A stretch of 30,414 nt of DNA from a virus, in the IMG/VR virus record IMGVR_UViG_3300044695_002837, positions 1 to 30,414 of that record; one strand, written 5' to 3'. A program made the translations under genes and the position numbers. Positions within the stretch are counted from its first letter, which is position 1; every line of letters starts with the position of its first letter. Below the pieces are notes generated by a model. That model was not told the origin of the DNA, did not search any database, and saw nothing but the letters and a program-made list of their open reading frames with translations. Positions 5,943 to 30,414 of this stretch are shown one piece after another.

Positions 5943-6686
5943 CTATTTATTTTTACAATTATTAAAATGATATCGTGTCATATTTCCACCCTTTCCAGAT
6001 ACATCACAGTGCGGACATTTAACAATCGGATGGTTTTTTCGGATCAATGACATTTTTTGCTTTGTTTCAGTTGTAACTACTCTGTTTTTTAACTTATGAA
6101 TAGTCTCAGCGGTATGCTTTCTTCCTAAATTAATCTGTCTTATTTTTTCTTTTGTTTCATCAGTATGCATTCTCCCCGTGCTAGTAATTGAAAGCTTTTT
6201 TCTTGTTTCAGCACTTGCTATTCTATTTTTACTGGCAGCACCGATCTTTGCTCGTGTTTCATCTGAAATATTTAGTTTAGAATTTTTAATCTTTTGCTTG
6301 GTTGCATCAGATAATCGTCTACGACTATTTGATGCAGAAATTTTATTTCTAGTTTCCGATGACACTATAGCCCCGTGAGTTCCACCATCTAATCCATTTT
6401 CTAATATTAAATTAGCCCATTCGTTAGATTCTACAATATTATTTTCAATTGAGAATTTTAATGCAACTTCAGTTAATATTTCTTTATTAGTATATGGTTC
6501 TGACATCCAGATGGTTTCTACATATTCTTCACCATGTTTTCTGATATGTTTTTTCCAATATGTTCCAGATCCTAAGTATTTTAATGGGTTTGAATTTGTA
6601 GTTTTACCAAAATATTTTAAGCCAGTAATTGAATGTTGTTTAATATAAAGATAAGTTGGTGTGATGGTATTATCATAAATACTCAT
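5943..6686 (-). CDS. GIY-YIG-like homing endonuclease with NUMOD3 repeats (copy B)
   Basis: 247 residues from the ATG at 6686, which has ACGGAGG 7 bases upstream and lines up with the starts of the other leader-bearing endonucleases; an upstream ATG at 6707 is in frame but lies inside the leader hairpin. The catalytic domain is a variant with LYI at residues 13-15 and YFG at 25-27, similar to Seg-type enzymes, then LGSGTYWKKHIRKHG. Residues about 100-210 are repeated Ser/Thr-x-E-T-(K/R)-x-K modules, typical NUMOD3 DNA-binding repeats. The end carries CPHC...HFNNC. It separates the intact synthase gene from a displaced 3' copy of that gene, indicating insertion at that locus. Confidence 0.88.
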   Translation of the reverse strand: MSIYDNTITPTYLYIKQHSITGLKYFGKTTNSNPLKYLGSGTYWKKHIRKHGEEYVETIWMSEPYTNKEILTEVALKFSIENNIVESNEWANLILENGLDGGTHGAIVSSETRNKISASNSRRRLSDATKQKIKNSKLNISDETRAKIGAASKNRIASAETRKKLSITSTGRMHTDETKEKIRQINLGRKHTAETIHKLKNRVVTTETKQKMSLIRKNHPIVKCPHCDVSGKGGNMTRYHFNNCKNK

Positions 6687-6690
6687 GCTG

Positions 6691-6741
6691 ATGTCCTCCG
6701 TTGACATTAGTGTAGTTGGGAATCCCCATTCCGCGAACTAC
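6691..6741 (-). promoter_or_regulatory. Two-hairpin 5' leader of endonuclease B
   Basis: On the minus strand, outer stem GTAGTT/AACTAC with inner stem GGAAT/ATTCC and GGGG loop (plus 6712-6741). It is followed by ATGTC-AACGGAG-GACAT (plus 6691-6707), which holds the Shine-Dalgarno sequence. Compared with copies A and C, the second stem has changed at three base pairs (A-U to G-C, C-G to U-A, U-A to C-G) while staying fully paired. An AATAAATA late-core-like sequence lies just upstream on the minus strand. Confidence 0.8.
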
Positions 6742-6754
6742 GCCTTTATTTATT

Positions 6755-7954
6755 CTAATTATAACTTTTTAATATGATAGACAACGCTGTTACTAAATCA
6801 GCTATCATAGCATCCGTATGATTTGGGGTAGGTGCAAATCGCAATCGTTCAGTGCCAACATCTACTGTTGGAGAATTAATTGCTTGTACGTAAATACTAT
6901 AATCATTTAATAATCTATCACTAATTTCTCGGGCTTTCTGTGCATTCCCGATCAACACCGGTACGATATGTGTAGTTGAGTCCATTACTGGTATTCCCGA
7001 TTCCTTCATCCGTTTTTTTAATTTTCTAGCTCGTTCTTGGTGTTTTTCTCTTAATTCATTATGAGCTTTTGAAAATTTAACTGCAGCTAATGCCCCGGCG
7101 ACAATCACTGGACTTAATGATGTACTAAAGATGAATCCATTCGCAATGCTTCGAATAGCATCAATTACTATAGAATCCCCTGCGATATAACCACCTTGTA
7201 CACCAAATGCTTTGCCAAGAGTACCATTAACAATATCAACTCGTTCTTGTAAACCTAGTTCTTCTAACACACCCGCACCTGTAAATCCTCGAACTCCTAC
7301 CGCATGAACTTCATCACAGTATGTGATGGCATTATATTTGTCAGCTAAATCACATATTTCTTTAATTGGACTGACATCACCTTCCATACTGTATACACTT
7401 TCAAATACAATACAAGGAATAGTTTCATTTTTAACTGCCTGTTTTAAACAGTTTTCTAACTCAATTAAATCATTATGCTTGAATATTTGTTTAGGTGCTC
7501 TGCTATGGCTCATACCAACTATTAAACTATTATGGTTCTTGCTATCACTAATAAACTCGATATTTGGAATAATCTTACTTAATGCAATTAAACTCCATTC
7601 ATTTGCTACATATGCAGATGAGAACAATAGTGCTTTTTCTTTTTTATGTAATGATGCTAATTCATGTTCCAATGCGACATGATAATGACTAGTTCCTGAA
7701 ATATTTCTAGTACCACCAGAACCAGCACCTGTCATATCTAATGATGTCCTCATTGCATCTAATACTACTTTATGCTGCCCCATCCCAAGATAATCATTAC
7801 TACACCAATTGACAATATTCTTGATGGCATATGGGCCATACCAAATTGCATTTGGGAATTTACCTTGCTCACGTAGTATGTCATTGAAAACTCTGTATTT
7901 TCCAGTTTCTTTTAAATCATTAATAAGTTTATTGAATGGTTCTTTGTTAATCAT
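6755..7954 (-). CDS. hemA: 5-aminolevulinate synthase (ALAS)
   Basis: 399 residues, the normal size for bacterial ALAS, a PLP enzyme that condenses glycine and succinyl-CoA to 5-aminolevulinate, the first step of C4-pathway haem synthesis. Family features seen: YRVF near R21, [12 protein letters not shown] at 50-61, [13 protein letters not shown] at 80-92, [14 protein letters not shown] at 184-197, DEVHAVG at 214-220 and the PLP-binding Lys K248 in GTLGKAFG. The GTRNI stretch and R21 favour ALAS over the sister enzymes KBL, BioF and SPT. All catalytic parts are present, so it looks active. TAAATA lies 5 bases before the ATG with no clear ribosome binding site. Its 3' end was probably replaced during endonuclease insertion. 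The symbol follows the alphaproteobacterial use of hemA. Confidence 0.93.
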
Positions 7955-8205: not shown

Positions 8206-9807
8206 ATGACATATATACATCCAAATGATAATAATTTAAAAAATCTGCATAAAGCTATGCAATATAATGAGTCTGGTGAACCAGTTATTCGCACACATGT
8301 TGATGGAATATCATTACAAGGCGATGTTCTGGTTGATAAGGTTAGAATTCAAATCGATACATTAGGGAATGTATGGGATGAAAATCATTCTGCACCAGTA
8401 TCAATCGGTACTAATGGGCAAGTAACATTAAAAACGAGTTCTGCAGTTATAGGAAAAGTTCAGCAAGATGGTGATTGGACTGTTAAACAAGGTACTACCC
8501 CATGGGCAATTAGTGATAATGGTGGTTCTATTACAGTGGATGGCAGTGTTTCAATTAGCAGTTTACCAGAAGTTGAAATAAAAAATGATAGTGGAAATCC
8601 TATTCCAGTTTCAATGGGGTTTGGCGCAATTGATGCGTTTGGTAGACAACGAGTTTCCGAACCTTTTACTTTAGGTGATTATAAACACTTATATGGTATA
8701 GATCCTGCATTTATCGACTATGCTGGAAATGGTGGTGCTATTCAATTTGTAAAAAATAAAGCATGTTGTACATTATCTACAACTTCTAATCCATCTAGTT
8801 TTATTATCCATCAAACAAAATTTTATCATCATTATATGCCTGGTAAATCTCAAGTAATTTTTAGTAGTATAAATTTTGGAGCTGCTACACCGAACGTAGT
8901 TAAACGAACTGGGTATTTTGATGATAATGATGGAATTTACTTTGAGCAAGCAGGCGATGGGACTTTATCATGGGTAATAAGAAGTTTTGTTTCTGGCGCT
9001 CCCATTGAAGTCAGAAAAACTCAATCACAATGGAATTTAGACACTGTTTCATGGTTGAACATACTTAATACACAATTAGTAGTGATTGATTTCCAGTGGC
9101 TGGGCGTTGGTAGGGTTCGTGTTGGGTTTGCACATAATGGCAATGCAGTTTATGTACACGAATTCTTACATAGCAATATGTTACCAACTGTTTACATGAG
9201 TAATCCAAATCTTCCCGTTAGATGCGAAATAAGAAATATTGGTACTACCACAGGCGGTTCAATGGATCAAATATGTTCAACAGTATTCAGTGAAGGTGGC
9301 TATGTTGAAGCAGGTCAAGATTGGTCTACAACTACACCGACCTTAAAAACAATAGCAGCTGGTGTAACTTCTCCAGTTATGGCAATTAGATTAAAAAATA
9401 CGTTTCATACATATTCAAATAGAATGATTGTTCGCATGGGTAACTTAAATGTATTCAGCGATGGTGCCAATATTAAATGGCAATTGATAAAATTACCAGC
9501 ACAAGCATTTCTAACAGGTAATTCATGGGTAGATGTGCATAATGAATCAGGTATTCAATACAACGTAACTGCTACCGCATGGACAGATGGGCAAGAAATG
9601 GATAGTGGATTTGTTGGTGCATCTACCCAAGGTAGTCAAAAAGCAGGAGGCGCACCGGCTAGTAACATCCCATCATCTGCAAAAAAGAATTATATTGTGC
9701 AAAACTTTGACAGTACGGATTCTGAGATATTCCTGGTAGTTGCCACAAATTTAGGTGCACAATCAACGAATGTTGGTGTTAGTATGCAATGGCGTGAAAT
9801 ATATTAG
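8206..9807 (+). CDS. Virion structural protein, probable tail/fibre component
   Basis: 533 residues, rich in Gly, Ser, Thr and Asn with no signal peptide or membrane segment. Residues about 40-135 are beta-strand-like repeats (QGDVLVDKV, NGQVTLKTSS, GGSITVDGSVSIS). The middle has FGRQRVSEPFTLGDYKH at about 145-161, a motif I associate with structural proteins of T4-like marine phages, then a lectin-like beta-rich region to the end. It stands between small genes and the fibre genes and is likely a virion surface or tail protein. The exact part cannot be assigned. Confidence 0.65.
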   Translation: MTYIHPNDNNLKNLHKAMQYNESGEPVIRTHVDGISLQGDVLVDKVRIQIDTLGNVWDENHSAPVSIGTNGQVTLKTSSAVIGKVQQDGDWTVKQGTTPWAISDNGGSITVDGSVSISSLPEVEIKNDSGNPIPVSMGFGAIDAFGRQRVSEPFTLGDYKHLYGIDPAFIDYAGNGGAIQFVKNKACCTLSTTSNPSSFIIHQTKFYHHYMPGKSQVIFSSINFGAATPNVVKRTGYFDDNDGIYFEQAGDGTLSWVIRSFVSGAPIEVRKTQSQWNLDTVSWLNILNTQLVVIDFQWLGVGRVRVGFAHNGNAVYVHEFLHSNMLPTVYMSNPNLPVRCEIRNIGTTTGGSMDQICSTVFSEGGYVEAGQDWSTTTPTLKTIAAGVTSPVMAIRLKNTFHTYSNRMIVRMGNLNVFSDGANIKWQLIKLPAQAFLTGNSWVDVHNESGIQYNVTATAWTDGQEMDSGFVGASTQGSQKAGGAPASNIPSSAKKNYIVQNFDSTDSEIFLVVATNLGAQSTNVGVSMQWREIY

Positions 9808-24846: not shown

Positions 24847-25806
24847 ATGGATATGAATAAAATAACAGTAATCAAAAGAAATGGTACTAAAGAACCATTA
24901 AACCTAGAAAAATGGCAGCATCAAATCGCTAAAGTATGTAGCGGTATCGCTGATGTTAGCCAGTCAATGATTGAAATCGAAAGTCAACCGCATTATTATG
25001 ATGGCATTACGACCAAAGAAATCGATGAAATTACATTACGTGCAATAGTTAATCTTATTGACATAGAAGCCAATCCTGATATCGGACATACAAATTATCA
25101 ATATGTGGCTGGTAAACAACGGTTGTCAATGCTTCGTAAAGATGTATATGGACAATATCAACCACCAAAACTTTATGACATCGTAAAGAAAAACATAGAA
25201 ATAGGACTTTATACTCCAGAACTTCTAGATTGGTATGCAGAAGATGAATGGAATAAAATGGACTCGTTCATTGACCATGATAAAGACGAACAATATTCCT
25301 ATGCAGCAATTGAACAATTAATAGAAAAATATCTATTAAGAAATCGTGCTACCAAAGAAGTATACGAAACTCCACAAGTTAGATATATGGTTGCGGCAGC
25401 TACGGTCTTTCATAAAGAAGAACCAAATTCTGCTAGAATGAAATACATAAAGGAATATTATAATGCTGCGTCCGATGGTCTATTCACTCTTGCTACTCCT
25501 GTTCTTGCTGGGCTTGGAACTCCAACAAAACAATTTTCTAGCTGCGTCCTTATACGGAGCGATGACGATCTTGACTCTATATTTGCTTCTGGCGAAATGA
25601 TGGCAAAATATGCCAGTAAACGTGCTGGCATAGGCTTAGAAGTTGGTAGATTGCGCCCACTAGGTTCACCTATTAGAAATGGTGAAATTATGCATACCGG
25701 ATTCATTCCATTCCTTAAAAAATGGTTTGGTGATCTTAGATCCTGTTGTGTTACTCCAGAAACTTGGGTTGAAGTTTTAGACGAGTACGATTCCAACAAT
25801 AAATAA
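24847..25806 (+). CDS. nrdA: Ribonucleotide reductase large subunit, N-terminal piece fused to split-intein N fragment
   Basis: 319 residues from ATG 24847 (a second ATG at 24853 is equally possible; an ATG at 24754 lies in the leader hairpin and adds 31 residues unlike NrdA). An ATP-cone domain occupies about residues 4-92 (KITVIKRNGTKEPLNLEKWQ). YGQYQPPKL, ETPQVRYMVAAATVF and TPVLAGLGTPTKQFSSC follow; C233 of FSSC equals E. coli redox C225. SKRAGIGLEVGRLRPLGSPI and HTGFIPFLKKWFGDLRSC end the extein at C300 (E. coli C292). Then come 19 intein residues, CVTPETWVEVLDEYDSNNK, and a stop. With the other pieces it makes class Ia NrdA, reducing ribonucleoside diphosphates. Confidence 0.93.
   Translation: MDMNKITVIKRNGTKEPLNLEKWQHQIAKVCSGIADVSQSMIEIESQPHYYDGITTKEIDEITLRAIVNLIDIEANPDIGHTNYQYVAGKQRLSMLRKDVYGQYQPPKLYDIVKKNIEIGLYTPELLDWYAEDEWNKMDSFIDHDKDEQYSYAAIEQLIEKYLLRNRATKEVYETPQVRYMVAAATVFHKEEPNSARMKYIKEYYNAASDGLFTLATPVLAGLGTPTKQFSSCVLIRSDDDLDSIFASGEMMAKYASKRAGIGLEVGRLRPLGSPIRNGEIMHTGFIPFLKKWFGDLRSCCVTPETWVEVLDEYDSNNK
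25747..25803 (+). other. Split intein N fragment (19 residues)
   Basis: Starts at Cys1 (TGT 25747) straight after the extein Cys, and CVTPETWVEV fits intein block A (C-x3-x-T-x-V). It ends after 19 residues at TAA. The remaining intein blocks are encoded at 26932. The split falls after the first strand pair, as in the known atypically split inteins with short N parts. Confidence 0.85.
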
Positions 25807-25811
25807 CAGTT

Positions 25812-25851
25812 TTTCTCATACCAGCATAAATAATAATGGAGGTATGAGAAA
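25812..25851 (+). promoter_or_regulatory. RBS-masking hairpin with a late promoter core in its loop
   Basis: TTTCTCATACC (25812-25822) pairs perfectly with GGTATGAGAAA (25841-25851), 11 bp. The 3' arm takes in the last GG of the GGAGG ribosome binding site and the A of the ATG. The 18-base loop contains CATAAATA (25825-25832), one mismatch from the T4 late core. Transcripts from upstream would carry the closed hairpin, while late transcripts starting inside the loop would lack the 5' arm and be open. Confidence 0.8.
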
Positions 25852-26945
25852 TGCTAAATTATCTACAAGAATCATATAACGGATCTTTAACAAATATGCT
25901 AACAAATTCAACTTATTACTGTTATACACTTAATGACATCGAAACTGGAAAGTTTTATTCTGGTTCTCGTGGAGTTGAGGGAAGTAACGAACATGACTTA
26001 CTAATAAAATATTTTACTAGCTCAACTACAATTGATTTTGTCCAAAAATTAAAAGAACATCCTGAGTTGTTTAAATATAAGATAGAATATTTTAATACAA
26101 GAGTATTGGCATTTGAAGCAGAAAAACTTTTTCACAAAAAGCATCAAGTTGGGAAGAATCCGCTTTTTATAAATTCTATCAGCGCAGGTGGAACCAATTG
26201 CGGTGCAGGTACTGTCTTGTGTAAAGATTCTAATGGAAATACTTATCGAGTAACCGTAGAAGAATTTGCTACTGGAAGACATCTACATGTGTCAAAAGGC
26301 ATGATGAATATCAGGACCGACACTGGAATTAAAAAGATTTATGTTAAAGATTGTAATCCTAATACACATACTACTGAATTTAAAGACTATGTACTGGCAC
26401 TAGATACGTCTACCGGAAATACTTGCAGAATATCAAAAACTATTTTTTATTCTAATCCAAAATATGTTGGTATTACTAAAGGTAAAATAGTAGCCTACGA
26501 TACTATTACTGGTAGGCGAGTTACAGTACCCCATCATGAGTTTCATAATTCAAATGGTAGATACGTTGGACATACGTTTGGCGAAATTTCAGTAATAGAC
26601 AGAGTTACTGGTGAGAAAAAACTTATCAAAAAAGAAACGTATAATAAGGATTTGCATAAGCATCATAATACTGGAAATGTTGTAGTCTATTCTCTTATTG
26701 ACCGAAAGGTCATAACTATAAGCAAAGAAGAATATCAAACCAATTTTGCTAACTATGCCAACCCATCAACCAAAGTTTTTTATAAAGTAGATGGTATTTT
26801 TTTTAAGTCAAAAGATTTATTGGACAAATACTACAGAGAAACTAGAGGAAGAACAGTATTAAAAGTTAGTCAATATAATATGTCCTCAAAATTTAACGAC
26901 ATTGAAATAATTACAAAAGAAGAACACAAAAATGGTAAAAACTAA
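25851..26945 (+). CDS. Putative GIY-YIG-type homing endonuclease between intein halves (copy D)
   Basis: 364 residues. The N-terminal 110 residues look like a divergent GIY-YIG nuclease: YCY at 23-25, YSG at 36-38 (GKFYSGSRG), then a helix with LAFEAEKLFHKKHQ. Residues about 120-325 consist of five similar modules of about 32 residues, each with a V-x3-D-x2-TG strand turn, an I-x-K-x-E-(Y/F) helix start and often YVG, which may read DNA. It lacks the CPHC zinc module of its relatives here. It sits exactly in the gap of the split intein, so it is the likely mobility partner. Translation seems controlled by the hairpin at 25812. It overlaps the next gene by 14 bases. Confidence 0.75.
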   Translation: MLNYLQESYNGSLTNMLTNSTYYCYTLNDIETGKFYSGSRGVEGSNEHDLLIKYFTSSTTIDFVQKLKEHPELFKYKIEYFNTRVLAFEAEKLFHKKHQVGKNPLFINSISAGGTNCGAGTVLCKDSNGNTYRVTVEEFATGRHLHVSKGMMNIRTDTGIKKIYVKDCNPNTHTTEFKDYVLALDTSTGNTCRISKTIFYSNPKYVGITKGKIVAYDTITGRRVTVPHHEFHNSNGRYVGHTFGEISVIDRVTGEKKLIKKETYNKDLHKHHNTGNVVVYSLIDRKVITISKEEYQTNFANYANPSTKVFYKVDGIFFKSKDLLDKYYRETRGRTVLKVSQYNMSSKFNDIEIITKEEHKNGKN

Positions 26946-27336
26946 AAAAATTCAAATTAAAGACCTGACAGTAGGTATGAAAATTAAAACTAAAAACGAG
27001 CAAGGCGATATCGTCTTTAAGACAGTAACCGATAAATGGAATACAGTTGTGCAATCCGAAGACCAAGTTCGGTTAGAGTTCGAAAACGGCGTGGTATTAA
27101 ACTGTTCGGTAAATCATCCAATTATGGTGTGGAGTGACTCTGGAGAATTCCTACAGAAGAAACCGAAAGACCTTACTAATGATGACCGTATTCTCACTGA
27201 AGTTGGGTTCACTAGATTATTAGTAGCTGATTTTGACCAAAACAATGACGAGAATTATATCGATATCACAGTAGAGGATACTCATACTTTCTTTGCATCT
27301 GCCAGTAAAGAAAGTCAAATGGTATTAACACATAAC
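26932..27336 (+). other. Split intein C fragment (135 residues)
   Basis: Holds blocks B, F and G and ends His-Asn with Ser as the first extein residue. KKIQIKDLTVGMKI near its start is the strand that normally follows block A in a contiguous intein, so together with 25747-25803 the Hint fold would be complete, with no inserted endonuclease domain. Confidence 0.88.
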
Positions 27337-27966
27337 TCGCAAGGTGGTGTTAGAAATGCATCGGCAACAGTATTTTACCCAATTTGGCATTATCAATTCG
27401 ATGACCTGATTGTACTTAAAAACAATCAAGGAACTGAAGAAACTCGTGTTCGCCATATGGATTATGGTGTTGTATTATCAGCATTCTTTTGGAGACGTTT
27501 TAAGGATAAAGGAAACATTACTTTCTTTGATCCGAATGAAGTACCAGATTTATACGAAGCATTCTATCAAAATACCACAAAATTTGAAGAACTCTACGTA
27601 AAATACGAAAAACGTAAAGACTTACGTAAAAAAACAATGAGTGCTGAAGAAGTATTCAAAGGTGGTATTCTAAAAGAAAGAACTGATACCGGTAGAATCT
27701 ACTTAGTGTTCATTGATAATGTAATGAAGCAAGGACCATTTGATCCAGAACATCACACAATATACCAATCAAATTTATGTTTAGAGATAAATTTGCCAAC
27801 AGTTCCATTAAAATCATTAGATGATGAAGGAGAGTTTAAACTTAGTTTAGACGATGGTACTGAAGTATTAATTCCAGGGCAACACAAGGTTTTATTGTCT
27901 AACGGTGATATGAAGAAAGTTAGGGAATTGACAGAAGATGATGATATTACAGATTTATTATTATGA
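26932..27966 (+). CDS. nrdA: Split-intein C fragment fused to NrdA middle piece, with an intein-like tail
   Basis: 344 residues. Residues 1-135 are the intein C fragment: block B-like NCSVNHPIMV at 57-66, block F YIDITVEDTHTFFA at 109-122 and block G VLTHN ending H134-N135. The extein follows with Ser+1 (SQGGVRNASATVFYPIWHYQ), the specificity loop 2 region of NrdA, then RVRHMDYGV and TGRIYLVFIDN. The catalytic N-x-C-x-E is in SNLCLEINLP: N281, C283 (E. coli thiyl C439) and E285. The extein ends near E301. The last 43 residues (LSLDDGTEVLIPGQHKVLL...) look like intein block B, not NrdA. The next gene starts within the stop (ATGA). Confidence 0.92.
   Translation: MVKTKKIQIKDLTVGMKIKTKNEQGDIVFKTVTDKWNTVVQSEDQVRLEFENGVVLNCSVNHPIMVWSDSGEFLQKKPKDLTNDDRILTEVGFTRLLVADFDQNNDENYIDITVEDTHTFFASASKESQMVLTHNSQGGVRNASATVFYPIWHYQFDDLIVLKNNQGTEETRVRHMDYGVVLSAFFWRRFKDKGNITFFDPNEVPDLYEAFYQNTTKFEELYVKYEKRKDLRKKTMSAEEVFKGGILKERTDTGRIYLVFIDNVMKQGPFDPEHHTIYQSNLCLEINLPTVPLKSLDDEGEFKLSLDDGTEVLIPGQHKVLLSNGDMKKVRELTEDDDITDLLL
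27835..27963 (+). other. Intein block-B-like tail on the NrdA middle piece
   Basis: 43 residues after the last NrdA-like residue. LDDGTEVLIPGQHKVLLSNG followed by DMKKVRELTEDDDI lines up with the block B region of inteins (compare Npu DnaE LEDGSLIRATKDHKF) and with VRLEFENG...NHPIMV...KDLTNDDRI of the intein in the same protein. No block A precedes it and no block F or G is seen at the start of the next nrdA piece. It may be a relic, or a docking tail. Confidence 0.5.
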
Positions 27967-28670
27967 GCCAAGCATTTGTATATATTTGGAAGAATAAAGT
28001 ATCCCTAAGATGGTACTTAGGGTCACGCACTAGAAAAAATTGTCACCCACATTATGGTTATATATGTTCTAGTAAAATTGTAAAACCATTGATTAAGAAA
28101 AATTATGATGAATGGGGGAGAACGATTTTAGCAATTGGTGAACCTATCGATATGGTTAATTTAGAAACAGAGCTTTTAACGCTTTTAGATGCCAAAAATG
28201 ATATACGAAGTTATAACATGCATAATGGTGACGGTAAGTTTACAACATTAGGGATAAGTTTTATTTCTCACAATAAAGGAAAACCTAGTCCACGTAAAGG
28301 TATTCCAAACCTAGGTGTGTCTATCGCTAGAAAAGGAAAATCACCATATAATAAAGGAAAACCTAGTCCACGTAAAGGTATTCCAAACATTAAAACTAGT
28401 ATTTCTCTTAAAGGAAGAAAACAACCAACAGTATGCAGAATTATAGATAGAAAAGAAATAAGTATATCAAATTTTAAAAAATGGCTTAAACACGAACAAT
28501 CGCCTGAATTAAGATTAAAAAATAATATCAATATGTCTAATTCTAAAACAGGCAAGCCGATGAAAAAAGTAACATGCCCACATTGTAATAAAACAGGTGG
28601 GATCAGTAAAATGACTCAATATCATTTTGATAATTGTAAATTATATGGAAATAGAAATGAGAATAATTAA
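27963..28670 (+). CDS. GIY-YIG-like homing endonuclease at the second nrdA break (copy E)
   Basis: 235 residues. VYI at 6-8 and YLG at 18-20 (RWYLGSRTRK) mark a variant GIY-YIG domain, with E58 in NLETELL as a candidate metal ligand. The middle has NKGKPSPRKGIPN twice, encoded by identical 39-base DNA, in a NUMOD3-like Lys/Gly-rich region. The end carries CPHCNKTGGISKMTQYHFDNC, the zinc-like module shared with copies A and B. The ATG overlaps the nrdA middle-piece stop (ATGA) with no clear ribosome binding site, so translation is coupled. It overlaps the next nrdA piece by 14 bases. Confidence 0.85.
   Translation: MSQAFVYIWKNKVSLRWYLGSRTRKNCHPHYGYICSSKIVKPLIKKNYDEWGRTILAIGEPIDMVNLETELLTLLDAKNDIRSYNMHNGDGKFTTLGISFISHNKGKPSPRKGIPNLGVSIARKGKSPYNKGKPSPRKGIPNIKTSISLKGRKQPTVCRIIDRKEISISNFKKWLKHEQSPELRLKNNINMSNSKTGKPMKKVTCPHCNKTGGISKMTQYHFDNCKLYGNRNENN
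28272..28310 (+). repeat. 39-bp perfect direct repeat in endonuclease E, copy 1
   Basis: Identical to 28350-28388, offset 78 bases (26 codons). Encodes NKGKPSPRKGIPN. Confidence 0.93.
28350..28388 (+). repeat. 39-bp perfect direct repeat in endonuclease E, copy 2
   Basis: Partner of 28272-28310. Confidence 0.93.
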
Positions 28671-29619
28671 AAAAGAATGCACTAGAAAAGTTCCAAAAAT
28701 AGCACTGTGTACCTTAGGTTCAATCAATTGGGGTAATTGCAGAAATCCAGAAGATATGCGTAGAGCTTGCCGTATCCTTCATCGTAGCCTGAACAATATC
28801 TTAGATTATCAAGACTTCTTGTCAATCCACTCTAAACTATCAAACGATGAAATTCGTCCTATTGGGATTGGCGTTACTAATTTAGCATACTGGGCTGCTA
28901 AACGCGGGTTGAAATACGGTGAGCCTGAAATGTTAGCCGAAGTTAAATCTTTTATGGAACACCAGGCATTCTACTTAACTGAATCTAGTGTTGAATTAGC
29001 AGAAGAACGTGGACCATGTTTAGATAGTGCAAAAACCCGATATGGTCAAGGTATATTCCCGTGGGAACTACGTGCAGAAGGTGTAAATGAATTAACCGAT
29101 TTTACGCCAGAACTGCCTTGGGAACAATTACGTGAAAGAATGAAAGTTAGCGGTGTTCGTAATGCTACACAAATGGCAATTGCTCCTGTTGAATCTAGTT
29201 CGGTTGTTATTAATAGCACCAATGGTATTGAAATGCCAATGCAGTTAATTCAAACTAAAGAATCAAAAGCCGCATCATTAACACAAGTTGTTCCAGAATA
29301 CCATAAACTGAAAAACAAATATCAGTTAATGTGGGAACAAACTGATTGCATCGGGTATTTAAAAACTGCAGCGGTATTAGCAGCATATGTTGACCAATCA
29401 ATCAGTGTAAATTCATTTTATTCGCCTAAACACTTTCCAGATAGAAAAGTACCAGGAACATTAATTGCGAAGAATTTGATGTTAGGACATAAGTGGGGAT
29501 TAAAAGGTTTTTATTACTCACTTATAGATAAAGCTGGTTCAAAATCAGAAGATGAAGTTGAATTACCAAGTGGTATCAATGAAGATGATGAAAGTTATTG
29601 CGAATCTTGCAAATTATAA
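28657..29619 (+). CDS. nrdA: Ribonucleotide reductase large subunit, C-terminal piece
   Basis: 320 residues from ATG 28657 with GGAA just upstream; an in-frame ATG at 28627 lies within the endonuclease gene. The first 13 residues (MRIIKKECTRKVP) are not NrdA. KIALCTLGSINWGN then gives C18, equal to E. coli redox C462. LDYQDFL, PIGIGVTNLAYWAAKRG, VRNATQMAIAPVESSSVVINSTNGIE and VVPEY follow in the order of T4 and E. coli NrdA. KGFYYSLIDK holds the tyrosine pair of the radical path (E. coli Y730/Y731). The end, YCESCKL, is the swinging redox tail (C315/C318), the same as the T4 end. All C-terminal functions are intact. Confidence 0.94.
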   Translation: MRIIKKECTRKVPKIALCTLGSINWGNCRNPEDMRRACRILHRSLNNILDYQDFLSIHSKLSNDEIRPIGIGVTNLAYWAAKRGLKYGEPEMLAEVKSFMEHQAFYLTESSVELAEERGPCLDSAKTRYGQGIFPWELRAEGVNELTDFTPELPWEQLRERMKVSGVRNATQMAIAPVESSSVVINSTNGIEMPMQLIQTKESKAASLTQVVPEYHKLKNKYQLMWEQTDCIGYLKTAAVLAAYVDQSISVNSFYSPKHFPDRKVPGTLIAKNLMLGHKWGLKGFYYSLIDKAGSKSEDEVELPSGINEDDESYCESCKL

Positions 29620-30029: not shown

Positions 30030-30414
30030 ATGTCAGAACAGCAATATAACTTAAAAACACAAACGGATTATTTAAATCGTAAAATGTTCCTTGACCCAGC
30101 AGGGCCAGTAACTATTCAACGGTTTGAAGAAACAAAATATAATAAAATAGCAAAATTTGAACAAACTCAACGGGGGTTTTACTGGATTCCAGAAGAAATT
30201 TCATTGAGTAAAGATGCAAATGATTTTAAAGATGCTAGTGATGCGGTTAAACATATATTCACTAGTAATTTGTTAAGACAAACTGCTTTAGATAGTTTGC
30301 AAGGAAGAGCACCGATTCAAATTTTTGGTCCAGTTTCTAGCTTACCAGAAGTAGAAGCACTTATGTCTATATGGTCTATGTTTGAAACAAATATTCATAG
30401 CCGTAGTTATAGTC
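30030..30414 (+). CDS. nrdB: Ribonucleotide reductase small subunit (partial, N-terminal)
   Basis: 128 complete codons before the window ends. AAGGACAAGGA precedes the ATG. Features of class Ia NrdB are: RKMFLDPAGPVTIQRFEETK, then RGFYWIPEEISLSKD, HIFTSNLLRQTALDSLQGRAP with the first iron-ligand Asp in ALDSLQG (E. coli D84), and FETNIHSRSYS with the ligands equal to E. coli E115 and H118. The radical Tyr lies just past the seen conserved HSRSYS stretch. NrdB makes the diferric tyrosyl radical that NrdA needs. Confidence 0.95.
   Translation, partial: MSEQQYNLKTQTDYLNRKMFLDPAGPVTIQRFEETKYNKIAKFEQTQRGFYWIPEEISLSKDANDFKDASDAVKHIFTSNLLRQTALDSLQGRAPIQIFGPVSSLPEVEALMSIWSMFETNIHSRSYS

Follow-up and report, generated by a model that had tools for sequence, protein, structure and literature searches.

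The window analyzed here, a virus record of 30,414 bases (IMG/VR record IMGVR_UViG_3300044695_002837), encodes NrdA, the large subunit of a class Ia ribonucleotide reductase (RNR), which appears to have been invaded twice by homing elements and to be made as three polypeptides that are probably assembled by one protein trans-splicing step and one non-covalent clasp, the latter plausibly a trimmed split intein. NrdA is carried by three consecutive genes (24847-25806, 26932-27966 and 28657-29619) with a homing endonuclease gene (HEG) in each of the two gaps. The first interruption, break 1, has the hallmarks of a split intein with an N-terminal part (IN) closing piece 1 and a C-terminal part (IC) opening piece 2, and the second, break 2, carries a pair of oppositely charged tails, termed the C-tail (on piece 2) and the N-tail (on piece 3). 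The features are as follows.

24847-25746, plus strand: native part of NrdA piece 1 (E1, 300 amino acids) with ATP cone, all-alpha domain, barrel start and C225 equivalent (Pfam, Escherichia coli R1 alignment)
25747-25806, plus strand: break-1 IN (19 amino acids, beginning with Cys1) and stop codon (read directly; kept in relatives; continuous mini-intein in L065)
25808-25855, plus strand: predicted RNA hairpin with the hegA ribosome-binding site and start codon (z -5.3; both-sided changes)
25851-26945, plus strand: hegA, GIY-YIG-type homing endonuclease gene of gap 1 (phage-record matches, weak hegB alignment; no significant Pfam family)
26932-27336, plus strand: break-1 IC (135 amino acids, His-Asn end; PT-HINT 1.1e-6, TIGR01443 intein_Cterm above cut-off)
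27337-27828, plus strand: native part of NrdA piece 2 (E2) with Ser+1 and the N437, C439 and E441 equivalents (Pfam, E. coli R1 alignment)
27829-27966, plus strand: putative C-terminal clasp tail (45 amino acids, acidic) and stop codon (49 contigs; pN/pS 0.19; intein similarity)
27963-28670, plus strand: hegB, GIY-YIG-type homing endonuclease gene of gap 2 (phrog_314 3.9e-9; TIGR01453 2e-4)
28657-28695, plus strand: putative N-terminal clasp tail (13 amino acids, basic; kept in relatives)
28696-29619, plus strand: native part of NrdA piece 3 (E3) with the C462 equivalent, a Tyr pair and a C-terminal Cys pair (Pfam, E. coli R1 alignment)
30030-30413, plus strand: nrdB, truncated by the contig end (intact open reading frame (ORF) of 370 amino acids in the longer contig L086)

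Matches to the Pfam profile PF02867 run in order through the three genes, with profile positions 1-61 in piece 1, 67-220 in piece 2 and 223-522 in piece 3, and piece 1 also matches the ATP-cone and all-alpha RNR domains. Alignment to E. coli R1 (1rlr) places piece 1 on residues 5-293, piece 2 on 276-460 and piece 3 from 458 onward, with break 1 at C292|S293 and break 2 at about 457|458. The C225 equivalent is residue 233 of piece 1 (FSSC), C439 is present in piece 2 (SNLC) and C462 in piece 3 (IALC). The catalytic residues are taken here to be C225, C439, C462, N437 and E441, numbers that agree with the alignment offsets, and the roles of the Tyr pair and the C-terminal Cys pair in piece 3 are likewise assumed. 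Adjacent genes overlap, hegA and piece 2 by 14 nucleotides, piece 2 and hegB by 4 (ATGA), and hegB and piece 3 by 14. The window overlaps a 95.9-kb IMG/VR contig (L086), to which it is identical over 11,564 bp, and the same arrangement is found on the separate contigs L086, L087 and L088 and also on L101, there with most of hegA deleted, which makes an assembly error unlikely; a frameshift or assembly artefact was rejected as the cause of the three-piece NrdA. An earlier note on this DNA had described NrdA in three genes with an endonuclease gene in each gap, one catalytic cysteine in each piece, GIY-YIG-like gap genes and two kinds of break in one gene. The ORFs and ordered Pfam domains bear out the gene layout and the R1 alignment places the cysteines; the nature of the gap genes is supported for hegB by phrog_314 and for hegA by phage-record matches and the weak alignment with hegB, and the two kinds of break are supported by the intein hallmarks at break 1 and by the position of break 2 at the site of the split nrdA of Aeromonas phage Aeh1.

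Piece 1 ends with LRSC followed by CVTPETWVEVLDEYDSNNK, and piece 2 opens with 135 amino acids ending in VLTHN, after which NrdA resumes with SQGG. These segments constitute a complete, atypically split intein having a 19-amino acid IN that begins CVTPETW, a 135-amino acid IC with the extein junction VLTHN|SQGG, and the expected Cys1, block-B His, terminal His-Asn and Ser+1. The IC alone matches PT-HINT with an E-value of 1.1e-6 (29.4 bits, above the cut-off of 27.7) and Intein_splicing with 1.5e-5 (25.2 bits, under its cut-off of 35.8), and of the NCBIfam models TIGR01443 (intein_Cterm) lies above its cut-off and TIGR01445 below. His-Asn precedes Ser at the end of the IC in 20 of 20 distinct sequences (the window included) and Cys begins all 18 IN starts seen, counts obtained with search patterns that themselves demanded part of the conserved splicing residues. 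In one relative (L065) the break-1 intein is a continuous mini-intein without a HEG, and in another (L120) the site is empty, with flanks 99.3% (left, 7,053 bp) and 98.2% (right, 2,277 bp) identical to the window. Over the 200 bp closest to the site on either side the two sequences are identical except at the junction, where 5 of the 12 bases immediately before the site differ, all synonymously, as might be left by a recent insertion bringing its own junction. Break 1 is most likely trans-spliced, joining pieces 1 and 2.

At break 2, piece 2 continues beyond native NrdA into GEFKLSLDDGTEVLIPGQHKVLLSNGDMKKVRELTEDDDITDLLL, and piece 3 opens with MRIIKKECTRKVP before K-IALC. Scanning for the C-tail gave 49 confirmed relatives on 49 contigs (from 69 pattern matches), near copies of one another included, and the parts of NrdA present on these contigs adjoin the tail in all 49, with E2 before the tail in 48 and, in L014, only E3 after it. 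Twenty distinct tail DNAs occur among those readable over 42 codons. The ratio of nonsynonymous to synonymous change (pN/pS) is 0.194 for the C-tail compared with 0.196 for the preceding 100 codons of the enzyme (from 19 of the 20 distinct tails, leaving out L192 with an intein upstream of the tail; pS of 0.77-0.81 is near saturation); the C-tail is as constrained as the enzyme. Net charges in this class range from -6 to -1 for the C-tail (median -4) and from +3 to +5 for the N-tail (median +4). Two relatives (L065 and L067) have no HEG at break 2 and both tails are kept, with the pieces overlapping by ATGA, and in two others (L202 and L203) only a remnant is left of the HEG found in L200; the C-tail is retained with a GIY-YIG-type HEG, with an HNH-type HEG or with none. 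Genome contigs scanned for the tails yielded 26 pattern matches, of which 0 were confirmed as relatives, and the sole match to the window C-tail among deposited phage records is at E 7. Pieces 2 and 3 are most likely joined by a non-covalent clasp of the two tails. A divergent form of the break-2 tails, with no HEG between them, is seen in L125 (9054-9313).

The Aeh1 gene, split as nrdA-a, mobE and nrdA-b, was reportedly described in Friedrich 2007 and Crona 2011. Aeh1 nrdA-A ends (LPTVPMG...) and nrdA-B resumes (EISLCTL) where break 2 of the window lies, and in both systems the gap contains a HEG but neither intron nor intein, and the two pieces bear oppositely charged extra tails. The Aeh1 tails, with net charges of +5 and -10, belong to another sequence class, the window tails being non-homologous and of reversed polarity; the Aeh1 HEG is of the HNH type whereas that at break 2 of the window is GIY-YIG-type, and the window nrdA, unlike that of Aeh1, is also broken at a second place, by a split intein. 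One or more of the patterns for Aeh1-type (class A) tails are matched by 17 contigs, in which the C side is basic (+5 to +9) and the N side acidic (-11 to -13). Deposited phage records gave no match to a class-A C-tail at E 0.01, a search for which the tail of Aeh1 itself is too divergent. Three contigs (L062 at 6906-6911, L110 and L111) bear Aeh1-like clasp tails with no endonuclease gene in the gap.

The gap contents were surveyed in 43 loci with both tail ends found by pattern, a sample in which other tail loci were missed by the pattern. The gap measures -4 nucleotides in two loci, 7 in one and 45 in two, the longest ORF in L214 is 123 amino acids with no evident HEG, and the remaining 37 have an ORF of 235-359 amino acids. 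HEGs of a given kind occur in both tail classes (for example L131 with L213, and L141 with L212), and an antisense HNH-type ORF is present in the tail class of the window. Among four gap proteins compared with Pfam, that of L141 reaches the cut-off for GIY-YIG, L131 is just under it for SegE_GIY-YIG, L042 has a weak HNH match and L216 no nuclease match. The C-terminal domain of MobE is common to GIY-YIG-type HEGs of both classes (L142, E 2e-21; L213, 5e-19), and its HNH part is homologous to the antisense-type HEG (E about 3e-13), E-values that hold for a small sequence set. This sharing of HEG kinds and of MobE domains across the tail classes suggests that HEGs and clasps are modular, and the NrdA site itself may be what the HEGs recognize or tolerate.

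The clasp may itself be derived from an intein. At another NrdA position, NLC|C, a canonical split intein is found in several relatives (in L115 its IN ends in ...VTELYEIEDEHGNVLRCTGDHLVFTKNRGYVRADELVETDELCVEI and its IC starts with MIKIKKIKVEPTDVYD), and the window tails look like the IN end and the IC start of this element. In hhalign comparisons the C-tail scores 23.9 with the NLC-site intein, above 200 of 200 column shuffles (best 21.7) and 179 of 179 real sequence windows taken from NrdA, hegA and hegB (best 17.6), and 20.30 with the break-1 intein, above 200 shuffles (best 20.23) and the 179 windows (best 19.84). When the tails are joined, the match extends ungapped over 49 columns across the split point with a score of 34.0 (25.2 for the C-tail alone), a value reached by N-tail shuffles in 3 of 150 trials (best 39.8). 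The block-B His is retained in 11 of 12 tails, and two genuine intein pieces from these loci score at 0.0022 and 0.0025 with Intein_splicing (one query with two letters swapped), similar to the tails (below). The polarity of the tails, with an acidic C-tail and a basic N-tail, is that of split-intein docking, where in natural split inteins an anionic IN and a cationic IC make the initial contact (PMC11766414, in excerpt).

A number of results weigh against an intein-derived clasp. Intein_splicing matches 9 of the 12 tails with a best E of 0.0069, below the Pfam cut-off, and the Ig-like model Big_4 matches 7 of the 12 equally well (best E 0.0063); the tails match no NCBIfam intein model, and the divergent L125 tail lacks an intein match. 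Searched against PDB profiles, the tails hit no intein, the best match being ribosomal protein L23 (E 0.053); Sonic hedgehog, a Hint protein, appears at E 1.7. No full intein was noticed at the break-2 site among the examined loci, in which no dedicated search for one was made. The N-tail is less constrained, with pN/pS of 0.42 (17 distinct DNAs of 14 codons). AlphaFold2 was uninformative both for the L202 read-through (piece 2, remnant and piece 3, with 63 relatives; predicted local distance difference test (pLDDT) 57.6, predicted template modeling score 0.63), in which the tails are misaligned in the piece-2 rows of 13 of 14 relatives, and for the tails alone, correctly aligned (pLDDT 38.3), where four short C-tail strands appear at a confidence too low for use. 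The intein comparison was also chosen once the likeness had been noticed. An intein origin of the clasp is moderately supported and slightly favored. A somewhat less probable account retains the same splicing and clasp and differs in the origin of the tails only, which would come from sequence created at HEG insertion, as Crona 2011 is said to have proposed for Aeh1, followed by chance and selection. Aeh1 and the 17 class-A contigs bear clasps of other sequence at the same site, meaning that clasps can arise there more than once, and the intein similarity lies under the Pfam cut-off with Big_4 scoring alike. This account is opposed by the hhalign register and the ungapped match through the split point, by the charge polarity shared with split-intein docking (as excerpted from PMC11766414) and by the identity of the tails across different HEG families, so that the tails are not simply part of one HEG.

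The remaining explanations concern how the pieces work rather than where the tails come from. It is very improbable that nrdA is decaying into three non-functional fragments with the host supplying deoxynucleoside triphosphates; for Campylobacter phage Cpt10, an nrdA pseudogene disrupted by insertions is described (PMC3653736, in the portion available), but here all pieces are open, the catalytic residues are retained, pN/pS is about 0.2 in C-tail and enzyme alike, nrdB is intact in L086, and the tails are kept even without a HEG. Splicing of break 2 as well, by an RNA intron or a non-canonical intein, into one continuous chain would fit the half-Hint similarity of the tails and their block-B His, and is nevertheless highly unlikely: break 2 lacks intein ends, with no Cys, Ser or Thr to start an IN and no Asn or Gln before Cys, Ser or Thr on the N-tail, and the stop codon of piece 2 and the start codon of piece 3 share ATGA in L065 and L067. 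A group I intron at this position was rejected, as the Rfam scan of the window at gathering score returned 0 matches, hence none around the HEGs, and the overlapping stop and start codons leave no room for an intron. Pieces 1 and 2 might also stay unspliced and assemble through an intact Hint domain, the split intein being a clasp only. The residue before the intein is Cys and the case for splicing is drawn from sequence, as this possibility would allow; it is nonetheless quite unlikely, since the splicing residues kept in the 20 IC ends and 18 IN starts, allowing for the search patterns, are not expected from selection on docking alone.

From the anatomy, homology, conservation and distribution of the pieces, the selection on them, and the empty and HEG-free alleles, we infer splicing, clasp function, enzyme activity and an intein origin of the clasp in the following scheme. 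Ribosomes would make the pieces from the overlapping genes, and the IN of piece 1 and the IC of piece 2 would dock and trans-splice ...LRSC to SQGG..., removing both intein parts and yielding one chain from the N terminus to the C-tail, with the HEG sitting in the gap. The acidic 45-amino acid Hint-like hairpin segment of piece 2 would then dock with the basic 13-amino acid strand of piece 3, holding it in place, so that pieces 2 and 3 would remain separate chains and the barrel would be restored with C439 and C462 on different chains. NrdB would complete the enzyme as (spliced piece 1-2 + piece 3)2 with NrdB, as in Aeh1, the complex of which is stated as (alpha-a + alpha-b)2 beta2 (PMC3267527, in excerpt). 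A canonical split intein is the probable ancestor of the clasp; it would have lost Cys1 with block A and the block F/G His-Asn and kept the IN/IC docking surfaces, and different HEGs would come and go in the break-2 gap. The earlier note had proposed one trans-splicing step and one non-covalent or unknown joining step; trans-splicing plus non-covalent joining is, from the anatomy of the breaks, the best reading, splicing and assembly themselves being predicted; the precedents it named, fractured genes and Aeh1, fit, and it overlooked the conserved tail pair at break 2.

The distribution of the two breaks was assessed in 179 distinct contigs, which are the best hits of four scans and form a biased sample. 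Neither break is present in 91 contigs, a window-type clasp without intein in 34, the intein alone in 9, both breaks in 12 (of which L086, L087, L088 and L101 are near copies of the window) and the intein with another insertion near break 2 in 9; 24 are cut off or mixed. Relatives with no, one or two breaks, which the earlier note had suggested looking for, thus all exist and in some NrdA is cut further, while a continuous nrdA, which the note had named as a refutation, represents the ancestral state and leaves function unrefuted. On a FastTree tree of E3 the intein requires 14 changes for 21 carriers (17-21 in 200 shuffles), the window-type clasp 16 for 30 (24-30) and the Aeh1-type clasp 9 for 10 (8-10), indicating that gains, transfers or losses are frequent; E3 borders the element, and co-conversion may therefore distort this tree. 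In L091 (6007-13091) and L092 NrdA is in four pieces and has, besides the break-1 split intein and the clasp, another split intein located after SQGGIRNA and a continuous one at NLC|C. This second split intein leaves one piece with only eight NrdA residues; its IC matches PT-HINT at 1e-5, slightly under the cut-off, and no intein match is seen for its IN. In L113, E3 is interrupted by one more split intein (VES|SS).

Fractured genes, in which split inteins have a HEG in the gap, were reportedly described in Dassa 2009. Break 1 is alike in having a split intein with a free-standing HEG between its halves in a phage nrdA, and differs in its atypical split with a 19-amino acid IN, its GIY-YIG-type HEG and the clasp break in the same gene. 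The Cat-TerL intein (PMC11766414, in excerpt) shares the short IN and long IC, but is an engineered consensus in TerL with an IN of 30 amino acids, compared with 19 in the window NrdA. PMC3653736 cites Dassa 2009 for nrdA genes with intein interruptions in metagenomes, and the nrdA of Campylobacter phage IBB_35, with two inteins (PMC3322345), and the nrdE of Brochothrix phage A9, in four ORFs (PMC3653736), resemble the window in having RNR as a repeated target of mobile elements; in the excerpts of these sources they are described as intein- or intron-interrupted, with no combination of clasp and split intein. Among the titles listed in searches of open-license literature, none describes one gene with both a split intein and a clasp break. 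In this phage group, putative clasps of two classes occupy one NrdA site and split inteins are found at break 1 and at three further sites, and the window unites two separate precedents in one essential enzyme. That split inteins can be cut back to the surfaces by which they dock and persist as non-splicing clasps, which replace an intron or intein in a mobile element and let the gene tolerate repeated insertion of different HEGs, is a generalization that could go either way; if true, the clasp would join RNA and protein splicing as a third means of rendering homing harmless. The natural series from no break through either break to both, with or without a HEG and up to four pieces, makes directly testable the question of how an essential gene survives being split by a selfish one. 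Should the clasp be a trimmed split intein, it would show a splicing element evolving into a structural one and offer a source of small, natural protein-pairing tags.

The product of hegB matches a homing endonuclease family (phrog_314, 3.9e-9), with TIGR01453 at 2e-4, below its cut-off, and no match in Pfam. For hegA there is no significant Pfam match and the best PHROG is an HNH family (0.0034); its first ~100 amino acids match 18 deposited phage records, with 33-37% identity among the 12 matches listed, 1 of which is annotated GIY-YIG, and its alignment with hegB is weak, over the GIY-YIG core. The leader of hegA is predicted to fold into a hairpin over its ribosome-binding site, with CATAAATA in the loop; among 9 sequences, 4 of its 17 pairs show both-sided changes, and similar hairpins are described for I-TevI and Aeh1 mobE (PMC2988022, in excerpt). 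The window has no excess of T4-type late promoters (TATAAATA), with 7 found compared with 8.3 expected, and CATAAATA is for this reason not claimed as a promoter. In L101 (653-863), a near-identical relative, most of hegA is deleted and the split intein retained. A 39-bp direct repeat lies within hegB (28272-28310 and 28350-28388), in the region encoding repeated KGKPSPRKGIPN motifs. Elsewhere in the window, another homing endonuclease gene is present on the minus strand (5943-6707; phrog_314, 9e-18), with 33 bp that are 88% identical to the end of hegB, and 8206-9807 encodes a structural protein similar to cyanophage ones (S-RIM32, 50% identity over 77%).

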